NCBI RefSeq assembly: GCF_002890915.1
Contig: NZ_POUT01000001.1
Span: 186,001 to 250,000 of the forward strand
Length of the DNA: 64,000 bases
Source: Stutzerimonas stutzeri
GTDB lineage: Bacteria; Pseudomonadota; Gammaproteobacteria; Pseudomonadales; Pseudomonadaceae
Direction: 5' to 3'
Positions 55,306 to 58,922 of this stretch are shown in pieces. A program made the translations under genes and the position numbers. Numbering within the stretch: the first letter of the stretch is position 1; every line of letters begins with the position of its first letter. The notes beneath the pieces are model-generated. The model made no database searches and had not been told where the DNA came from. It saw nothing but the letters and a program-made list of their open reading frames with translations.

Positions 55306-55962
55306 ATGGACGCGGATCTTACCCGGGACCCTCCCTCCCCGACTGTCACCCTCCTGACCGGCAATGAGCTGCTGGGGCTGTTCTTTCGCCATTTCCTCGG
55401 CGAGCAGGCGCAGCTCGAAGTCTCCCTGGCCGGGCTGGAATCCCGCCAGCATCGCGGTGCCGATCTGTTCCTGGTCGACGCCGGGCACAGCCAGGCCGAA
55501 CAGATTTCCAGCGTGATCGACCAACTCGACGAGCACACGCCGGTGGCGCTGGTGAACATCGTGCCCGAACAGGCCGAGCAGCTGGTGGACAAGCACCCGG
55601 TGATTCGCGGCGTGTTCTACAGCCACGCCACCCGCGAGCACCTGCTCGAAGGCATCCGCGTGCTGCTCGAAGGCGGCGACTGGCTGCCGCGCGTGCTCAC
55701 CGAACGCCTGCTCGGGCAATGGCGACGGATGCGTCAGCTCGCCGAAACCAAGACCAGCCTGACCCTGCGTGAACGGGAAATCCTCAGCCTGGCCGGCAAG
55801 GGCCTGTCCAACGCCGAGATCGCCGAACAGCTGTGCCTGAGCCCGCACACCATCAAGAGCCACATCCACAACCTGTTGCGCAAGATCGGCGCCTCCAATC
55901 GAGCCGAAGCGGCGTATCTGCTGCGCAGCCGCCTCGATTGGGACGAGTCGTGCCGCGCCTGA
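55306..55962 (+). CDS. CsgD-like LuxR family transcriptional regulator
   Basis: A 218-residue regulator close in length and layout to CsgD. The N-terminal receiver-like domain (about 10-130) lacks a standard phosphorylation pocket (LFLVDAGHSQ at the acceptor region) and contains VIRGVFYSHATREHLLEGI, like NGVFYS in CsgD. The C-terminal LuxR helix-turn-helix (about 150-212) is LTLREREILSLAGKGLSNAEIAEQLCLSPHTIKSHIHNLLRKIG. CsgD-type proteins switch on curli and matrix genes, but no curli genes lie here. The ribosome binding site is weak. Its target may be the divergent OPT operon or distant genes. Confidence 0.85.
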   Translation: MDADLTRDPPSPTVTLLTGNELLGLFFRHFLGEQAQLEVSLAGLESRQHRGADLFLVDAGHSQAEQISSVIDQLDEHTPVALVNIVPEQAEQLVDKHPVIRGVFYSHATREHLLEGIRVLLEGGDWLPRVLTERLLGQWRRMRQLAETKTSLTLREREILSLAGKGLSNAEIAEQLCLSPHTIKSHIHNLLRKIGASNRAEAAYLLRSRLDWDESCRA

Positions 55963-56092: not shown

Positions 56093-56146
56093 CGTTCAGC
56101 GCAGGTTCAGGCGGGATTCAGTCGAGGTTCAGTGATCACCGTTCAG
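56093..56146. promoter_or_regulatory. Phased GTTCAG array upstream of oprH (predicted PhoP sites)
   Basis: Seven-base units CGTTCAG, GGTTCAG, GATTCAG and GGTTCAG start at 56093, 56104, 56115 and 56126, exactly 11 bases apart. A fifth, CGTTCAG, starts at 56140. The 11-base direct-repeat spacing is that of PhoP boxes, which are tandem hexamers separated by five bases. It ends 43 bases before the oprH start codon. Confidence 0.75.
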
Positions 56147-56189
56147 GCTAGGGGCCGTCAGTATCCCGCTGCCTGAAAAGGAGTCACCG

Positions 56190-56850: not shown

Positions 56851-57528
56851 ATGAAGGTGCTGGTGGTGGAAGACGAGGCGCTGCTGCGCCACCACTTGCA
56901 GACCCGCCTCGGCGAGAGCGGCCACGTCGTCGATGCCGTGCCCAACGCCGAAGAGGCCCTGTACCAGAGCCACGAATTCAACCACGACCTCGCCGTCATC
57001 GACCTCGGCCTGCCGGGCATCAGCGGGCTGGACCTGATCCGCCAGCTGCGCAACCGCGGCAAGAGCTTCCCCATCCTCATCCTCACCGCGCGTGGCAACT
57101 GGCAGGACAAGGTCGAAGGCCTGGCCGCCGGCGCCGACGACTACGTGGTCAAGCCGTTCCAGTTCGAGGAGCTGGAGGCGCGCCTGAATGCGCTGCTGCG
57201 GCGCTCCTGCGGCTTCACCCAGGCGAGCATCGAGGCCGGCCCGCTGAAGCTCGACCTCAACCGCAAGCAGGCCAGCGCCCATGGCGAACCGCTGGCGCTG
57301 ACCGCCTACGAATACCGCATCCTCGAATACCTGATGCGCCACCAGCAGCAGGTGGTGGCCAAGGAACGGCTGATGGAACAGCTCTACAGCGACGACGAGG
57401 AGCGCGATCCCAACGTGATCGAGGTGCTGGTCGGCCGGCTGCGGCGCAAGCTCGAGGCCCGCTGCGCGATGAAGCCGATCGAGACCGTGCGCGGCCTCGG
57501 CTACCTGTTCACCGAGCGCTGCCGATGA
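56851..57528 (+). CDS. phoP: Response regulator PhoP
   Basis: A 225-residue OmpR-type regulator nearly identical in pattern to P. aeruginosa PhoP. The receiver domain has VVEDEALLRHHLQTRLGE, the phospho-acceptor in AVIDLGLPGISGLD, LTARGNWQDKVEGL and KPFQFEELEARL. The winged helix has LTAYEYRILEYLMRHQQQVVAKERLMEQLY and ends VRGLGYLFTERCR. It controls the response to low Mg and cationic peptides, including its own operon. phoQ overlaps its end by four bases. Confidence 0.96.
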   Translation: MKVLVVEDEALLRHHLQTRLGESGHVVDAVPNAEEALYQSHEFNHDLAVIDLGLPGISGLDLIRQLRNRGKSFPILILTARGNWQDKVEGLAAGADDYVVKPFQFEELEARLNALLRRSCGFTQASIEAGPLKLDLNRKQASAHGEPLALTAYEYRILEYLMRHQQQVVAKERLMEQLYSDDEERDPNVIEVLVGRLRRKLEARCAMKPIETVRGLGYLFTERCR

Positions 57529-58922
57529 ACCGGCGCTGGCGCCGGTTGCGGGCACGCCTCGGCAGCCGCCGCGGCGGCGCCATGTCACTGCGCCTGCGGC
57601 TGATGCTCGGCGCCGCCAGCCTCGCGGCATTGTTCATGCTGGCGCTGCTGCCGCTGCTGCAGGGTGCTTTCAGCCTGGCCTTCGAAAAGGTCATCGAGCA
57701 GCGCCTGGCCGCCGACGCCAGCACCCTGATCAGCGCCGCGCAGCTGGAAAGCGGGCGGCTGGAAATGCCCGAGCGGCTGCCGGACGAGGAATTCGACCTG
57801 CCGGATGCCCAGTTGCTCGGCTTCATCTTCGACCAGCGCGGCGAACTGCTCTGGCGCTCGCGCTCGGCGGCCGACGAGCGCATCGACTACCGCCCGCGCT
57901 ACCAGGGCGGGGTCACCGAGTTCCTCCGCGTGCGCGACACCGAGGGCCTGGAATACTTCGTCTACGACGTCGAACTATACCTGCCCGGCAACCAAGACAC
58001 CGCCTTCAGCTTCGTCACCATGCAGCCGACCAGCGAATACCGCAGCCTCTACGAGGAATTCCGCCGCCAGCTCTACCTGTGGCTCGGCGGCGGCCTGCTG
58101 GTGCTGCTGGCGCTGCTCTGGCTCGGCCTGACCTGGGGTTTTCGCACGCTCAGGCGGGTCAGCGCCGAGCTCGACGAAGTGGAGGCCGGCCGCCGCGAGC
58201 ACCTCAGCGACCGGCACCCGCGCGAGCTGCTGCGCCTGACCCGCTCGCTGAACCGCCTGCTCGACGGCGAGCGGCACCAGCGCGAGCAGTACCGCAATTC
58301 CCTCGGCGACCTGGCGCACAGCCTGAAGACCCCGCTCAGCGTGCTGCAGGGCGTCGGCGAAAGCCTCTGCGGCCAGCCGCAGAGCCGCGAGCAGGCGCAG
58401 GTGATGCACGTGCAGATCGAGCGCATGAGCCAGCAGATCGGCTACCAGCTGCAGCGCGCCAGCCTCGGCAAGAGCGGCCTGGTGCGCCACCGCGTCGAAC
58501 TGCAACCGCTGCTGCACAGCCTGTGCAGCACGCTGGACAAGGTCTACCGCGACAAGCAGGTGCAGGTCGAACTGCGCCTGGCGGACGACTGCCTGGTATC
58601 GATGGAACAGGGCGCGCTGATGGAACTGCTCGGCAACCTGCTGGAGAACGCCTACCGCCTGTGCCTGCGACAGGTTCGCGTCAGCGCGACGAGCAGCGCC
58701 GGCGAACTGCTGCTCGACGTCGAGGACGACGGCCCCGGCGTGCCACCCGACCAGCGCGCACGCATCATCCGCCGCGGCGAACGCCTCGACGCCCGGCATC
58801 CCGGCCAGGGCATCGGCCTGGCCGTGGTCAAGGACATCCTCGACAGCTACGGTGGCGAACTCAGCCTCGACGAATCGCCGCTCGGCGGCGCCGCCTTCCG
58901 CATCAGGCTCGGCAGCGACTGA
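57525..58922 (+). CDS. phoQ: Sensor histidine kinase PhoQ
   Basis: A 465-residue two-helix membrane kinase. Membrane helices lie at about residues 27-50 and 185-210. The periplasmic PhoQ-type sensor domain between them is acidic, with PERLPDEEFDLPDAQ, which would bind divalent cations. A HAMP-like linker follows. The H-box is LAHSLKTPLSVLQGVGESL, the N-box LLENAYRLC and the G-boxes DDGPGVPPDQR and GQGIGLAVVKDIL. It phosphorylates PhoP at low Mg. Its ATG overlaps the phoP stop (ATGA). An internal ATG (57582) is an alternative start. Confidence 0.95.
   Translation: MNRRWRRLRARLGSRRGGAMSLRLRLMLGAASLAALFMLALLPLLQGAFSLAFEKVIEQRLAADASTLISAAQLESGRLEMPERLPDEEFDLPDAQLLGFIFDQRGELLWRSRSAADERIDYRPRYQGGVTEFLRVRDTEGLEYFVYDVELYLPGNQDTAFSFVTMQPTSEYRSLYEEFRRQLYLWLGGGLLVLLALLWLGLTWGFRTLRRVSAELDEVEAGRREHLSDRHPRELLRLTRSLNRLLDGERHQREQYRNSLGDLAHSLKTPLSVLQGVGESLCGQPQSREQAQVMHVQIERMSQQIGYQLQRASLGKSGLVRHRVELQPLLHSLCSTLDKVYRDKQVQVELRLADDCLVSMEQGALMELLGNLLENAYRLCLRQVRVSATSSAGELLLDVEDDGPGVPPDQRARIIRRGERLDARHPGQGIGLAVVKDILDSYGGELSLDESPLGGAAFRIRLGSD

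Follow-up and report, generated by a model that had tools for sequence, protein, structure and literature searches.

Four half-sites for the response regulator PhoP stand head to tail, on a strict 11-bp period, in front of the oprH-phoP-phoQ operon in the window (the whole 64-kb stretch of the Stutzerimonas stutzeri genome that was analysed). The array is a genuine, conserved PhoP operator, to which, judging from published work, PhoP would bind. We consider it likely that two PhoP dimers bind the four half-sites head to tail and cooperatively, that they activate transcription with class II geometry, and that a fifth GTTCAG further downstream mostly reflects the -10 region of one species group. 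The regulator, the operon and the half-site are already known, and what appears to be new is the extended, gap-free layout. A literature search found no description of four direct repeats with PhoP, and an earlier account of four units at oprH is possible.

The array and its chance expectation

The four-unit run at 56094-56132 reads GTTCAG, GTTCAG, ATTCAG, GTTCAG and lies 5' of oprH-phoP-phoQ, ~60–100 bp ahead of the oprH-like gene (Table 1). Exact GTTCAG was found in the window at 56094, 56105, 56127, and 56141, and ATTCAG at 56116. A sequence-only reading of this DNA had counted five GTTCAG units; five RTTCAG copies are present, but the third one begins with A, which leaves four GTTCAG and one ATTCAG. 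The spacing given in that reading was found in the sequence, the unit starts being 11, 11, and 11 bp apart, with a further 14 bp to the fifth copy. The four-unit array is genuine and has the phase described.

Chance expectation was calculated from the base composition of the window, for 64 kb and both strands. At 11-bp spacing, it was 0.02–0.03 for two units, ~1e-5 for three and ~5e-9 for four, whereas one four-unit RTTCAG run on the 11-bp grid was observed in the window. This run was the sole one in the entire 4.77-Mb genome, and three of the five genome-wide matches to RTTCAGN5RTTCAG were located within it.

Table 1. Features of the oprH-phoP-phoQ promoter and operon (positions in the window).
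Feature	Position	Strand	Remarks
PhoP half-site unit 1, GTTCAG, upstream box	56094..56099	+	exact RTTCAG in 106/106 distinct promoters
PhoP half-site unit 2, GTTCAG, upstream box	56105..56110	+	exact in 96/106; the remaining 10 are GTTCAA
PhoP half-site unit 3, ATTCAG, promoter-proximal box	56116..56121	+	exact in 91/106; GACAG variants usual in genus g9
PhoP half-site unit 4, GTTCAG, promoter-proximal box	56127..56132	+	exact in 99/106; -10 element starts after 11 nt
GTGATCAC palindrome	56132..56139	.	only in the window's own promoter, 1/106
Fifth GTTCAG	56141..56146	+	overlaps the -10 element; in 15/34 distinct genus promoters, 0 in nine other genera
Predicted -10 element CAGGCT ([CT]ANNNT pattern)	56144..56149	+	A2 and T6 in 99% of promoters at exactly this distance
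Shine-Dalgarno AAGGAG of oprH	56178..56183	+	read from sequence
oprH-like outer membrane beta-barrel gene, 200 aa	56190..56792	+	PF13505 just below cut-off; homologues in 173/298 family genomes
phoP response regulator	56851..57528	+	best NCBIfam model PhoP, below its curated cut-off; OmpR family
phoQ sensor kinase	57525..58922	+	best NCBIfam model PhoQ, below its curated cut-off

The operon and the identity of the regulator

The barrel gene, the regulator and the kinase constitute the oprH-phoP-phoQ operon known from P. aeruginosa. A related Pseudomonas genome of 6,588,339 bp (G126) was used as the reference for the P. aeruginosa group. The PhoP of the window and the PhoP behind oprH in G126 shared 190 of 225 residues, and 83 of 100 in the DNA-binding domain; the likely recognition helix differed at one residue (region ERDxNVIEVLVGRLRRKLE). 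The gene 5' of oprH (55306-55962) encodes a LuxR/GerE-type regulator, for which the best NCBIfam model was CsgD, far under its cut-off.

The published PhoP consensus of P. aeruginosa is CGTTCAGNNNNNRTTCAG (CGTTCAGN5RTTCAG), and the motif recovered by ChIP-seq is G/ATTCAG (PMC7916210). Mutation of a PhoP box of the RTTCAG kind at retS had an effect (PMC3156716). The array carries the marks of such a Pseudomonas-type box: RTTCAG direct repeats with a 5-nt spacer, the known target oprH-phoPQ downstream with the phoP gene present, and a PhoP whose DNA-recognition region is conserved with that of the P. aeruginosa group (G126). It shares with the box at P. aeruginosa oprH-phoP-phoQ (CGTTCAGNNNNNRTTCAG) the half-site, the spacer, the operon and a near-identical recognition helix; however, the published consensus comprises two half-sites, whereas four abut in the promoters described here. 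The description of the site as a PhoP site with more half-sites than a simple box was supported: the units fit the consensus, four on-grid units face the two published ones, and ChIP-seq in strain PA14 supports the orthologous oprH promoter.

In the PA14 data, the top peak was at oprH (17.2-fold), followed by that at the pagP gene (15-fold; PMC7916210). Arrays of at least four units occurred in G126 only at oprH (four) and at a pagP-like gene (five). The top two PA14 peaks match these two G126 promoters, a correspondence that is only suggestive, with eight peaks in all and with the arrays read in G126, not in PA14.

Another response regulator might be the main user of the array. In P. aeruginosa, PhoP has envelope-stress targets in common with the PmrA, BqsR/CarR, ParR, and CprR systems (PMC7916210); however, the RTTCAG motif came from PhoP ChIP-seq and PhoP-dependent promoters, and the array precedes phoP itself. 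We regard this assignment as very unlikely and take PhoP as the regulator.

Conservation across the genus and family

Relatives of OprH were sought in 298 genomes of the family and found in 173. The DNA 5' of oprH was read at 120 loci; some promoters had been fetched twice, and removal of the duplicates reduced the set to 106 distinct promoters, which represent 10 genera. Every one of them keeps no fewer than three exact RTTCAG units in the common 11-bp register, and 74 keep four. The deviating units were GTTCAA, GTACAG, NGACAG or, once, GTTTGG. Several lineages tolerate a single degenerate unit (GTTCAA, GTACAG, NGACAG), so four perfect units are not a universal requirement. The genus-weighted mean information content of the 106 promoters was 1.84 bits in the units, 0.52 in the spacers and 0.14 upstream.

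Within the genus, the four-unit pattern was found in 38 of the 39 genomes with oprH and in none of the 17 without it, and a reversed control pattern occurred in none of the 298 family genomes listed. Conservation among Stutzerimonas had been named beforehand as a check, and the units are conserved in phase there and, beyond the genus, across the family.

A chance run or a neutral short tandem duplication would be a different origin for the array. Genome L077 carries six units, and its repeats are near-identical including the spacers (GTTCAGCGTCG), which indicates that expansion can occur. However, the chance expectation was 5e-9, and the spacers vary between lineages while units and phase persist. 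This conservation pattern refutes a chance or neutral origin, to which we assign a practically negligible probability.

In some genomes of genus g15 (L130, L133, L141, and L151), a four-unit array was located before phoP, with a short OprH-like ORF (~100 aa) in place of the full oprH. That suggests a porin that is decaying while its operator is retained.

Position relative to the -10 element

The gap between unit 4 and the -10 hexamer was 11 nt in 99% of the 106 promoters. The Salmonella PhoP hexamer is (T/G)GTTTA; in architecture I the box lies 12 nt from the -10 element, with class II activation by PhoP (PMC3335776). The Salmonella hexamer sits one base to the left, so that 11 nt after GTTCAG equals 12 nt after xGTTCA. 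Units 3-4 were assigned as the activating box because their distance to the -10 element equals this class II distance of 12 nt, and by analogy with the Salmonella work they would have class II geometry.

Units 1-2 form a second box abutting units 3-4, and in every promoter the spacing between the boxes was the same as that within them. A direct box ~12 nt 5' of the -10 element is shared with Salmonella architectures I and II (PMC3335776). Architecture I has only one box, whereas two abutting boxes were found here; the upstream second box is as in architecture II, with a spacing unlike that of the two promoters described in detail, where it lies 26 nt (virK) and 30 nt (ybjX) away (PMC3335776). 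In contrast to these second boxes 26–30 nt off, the second box in the present promoters keeps the 11-bp phase without a gap. A contiguous doubled box is absent from the five Salmonella architectures.

Here, two explanations were considered for the doubled box. One is that the boxes are independent: units 3-4 activate, units 1-2 have a separate job (e.g., silencer displacement), and no cooperativity exists between them. This would resemble architecture II, in which promoters cannot do without the proximal box and the one further upstream serves as enhancer or anti-silencer, the upstream box of virK overcoming H-NS (PMC3335776). However, the identical spacing between and within boxes in every promoter differs from the 26 and 30 nt of virK and ybjX, and the operon is widespread (173 of 298 family genomes) and GC-rich, which is atypical of silenced foreign DNA. 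We hold independent boxes to be unlikely, albeit worth weighing. The preferred explanation is that of two cooperating dimers. At low Mg2+, phosphorylated PhoP would line up along the four direct half-sites in head-to-tail order; with a subunit every 11 bp, all would lie on roughly the same side of the DNA. The dimer on units 3-4 would replace the -35 contact and touch RNA polymerase, as in class II activation. A second dimer on units 1-2 would be packed directly behind the first and would most likely raise affinity and steepness via protein-protein contact with it. The outcome would be that PhoP activates its own operon at low Mg2+.

The layout of four units in a row probably gives tight, cooperative PhoP binding, on the analogy of a related regulator. 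Arrays of three and four motifs with an 11-bp period were bound by M. tuberculosis PhoP more tightly than two-motif sites (PMC4832192). These tri- and tetra-repeat sites likewise hold as many as four motifs, set head to tail at 11 bp, with an affinity above that of pairs; however, M. tuberculosis PhoP is another regulator of the same structural family and not the Mg2+ PhoP, its motif is TCACAGC, and its binding as trimer or tetramer serves here as an analogy. The complex operators (PHO boxes) of Streptomyces coelicolor PhoP also comprise a variable number of 11-nt direct repeats for a regulator of the OmpR/PhoB family, but they differ in serving the phosphate response and in motif and organization (PMC4415409). 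The cooperative or graded response to PhoP that had been proposed for the array is plausible by comparison with M. tuberculosis PhoP.

Throughout the family, the operon of the Mg2+ regulator itself carries a doubled operator, with no gap between the boxes and with a constant distance to the -10 element. This design permits a clean test of how the number of half-sites sets the threshold and the steepness of response in an autoregulatory two-component loop governing envelope genes, and natural variants with three, four, five, and six units are on hand for the comparison.

The fifth copy, the palindrome and the leader

The first three letters of the -10 element are the CAG of the fifth GTTCAG. 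Its offset of 47 from unit 1, ~4.5 helical turns, places it roughly on the opposite face of the helix, and sister groups have GGCAGGAT or similar where it stands. The fifth copy had been taken for a further PhoP unit; this was rejected as the main reading, the copy being out of phase with the 11-bp grid (14), overlapping the -10 element and confined to one Stutzerimonas subgroup. Most likely, it is just core promoter.

It might instead be a weak PhoP half-site through which high levels of phosphorylated PhoP repress their own promoter in that subgroup, which would be compatible with the main explanation. In E. coli phoB, a weak, off-spacing PhoB site at the -10 element gives auto-repression (PMC6194859), PhoP boxes lie over the -10 element in Salmonella architecture V (PMC3335776), and the sole change within the fifth unit across the subgroup is G to A, which RTTCAG permits. 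Against this stand its spacing of 14 off the grid as a single half-site, the identity of its CAG half with the -10 element itself, the conservation of the entire surrounding stretch in that subgroup, and its absence from nine other genera. We consider such auto-repression improbable and keep to the core-promoter reading of the fifth copy.

The GTGATCAC palindrome reported at 56131-56138 is present, one base further on, at 56132-56139. It had been suggested as a second regulator site, and this was not supported: GTGATCAC was missing from the other 105 promoters, and at 1/106 it was rejected as a conserved dyad. Three further copies of GTGATCAC were found elsewhere in the window. The hexamer TGATCA occurred 35 times in the whole window against ~10 expected from dinucleotides; this excess may reflect codon usage only.

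Inverted repeats at 56142-56148 and 56171-56177 link the -10/start region with the Shine-Dalgarno region of oprH. They were also observed in the leaders of L054, L064, L078, and L006, and the arms differ between genera yet stay complementary (e.g., CTCCCGTCAA/TTGACGGGAG). Leader inverted repeats beat shuffled sequences at p < 0.05 in 28% of promoters and were strongest in genus g9. The folding signal disappeared when the leader was started 7 nt after the -10 element, and the presence of both arms in the RNA depends on the true start site.

Related arrays and the wider regulon

Arrays of four to six units were found in relatives before slyB and a pagP-like gene. The name slyB was given by resemblance by eye plus a glycine-zipper Pfam match, and pagP-like by resemblance by eye only, a Pfam search of that protein having returned no match. 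A [CT]ANNNT hexamer 11 nt past the array was also seen at slyB and at one pagP-like promoter, the ones inspected by eye. In genus g9, whose oprH promoters mostly have a GACAG variant as unit 3, four to six perfect units precede slyB or a pagP-like gene (L167, L168, L171, and L172).

A broader proposal is that the core PhoP promoters of Pseudomonadaceae (oprH-phoPQ, slyB, and pagP-like) consist of three to six adjoining half-sites along which PhoP polymerises, that array length and single weak units tune the Mg2+ threshold of each gene, and that the half-site at the -10 element adds auto-repression in one Stutzerimonas subgroup. We put it forward tentatively and with rather little confidence.

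Outside the array, the exact two-unit pattern occurred only twice more in this genome, once ahead of hslO and once between mlaF and kdsD. By eye, neither had a convincing -10 element at the right distance, and both are regarded as leads only. The former (G000:C11:313070-313086, L124) was located 120 bp before hslO (Hsp33), with no obvious -10 at the right distance. The latter (RTTCAGN5RTTCAG at G000:C34:172611-172627, L125; also L166, L183, and L186) was located before kdsD, beside a divergent mlaF-like ABC gene. It recurred in three of the five genus members inspected, and the corresponding intergenic region of G126 also held a match; in other genera, RTTCAG stood there with a GACAG-type half. 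The kdsD/mlaF site is a possible PhoP-linked LPS/lipid target.
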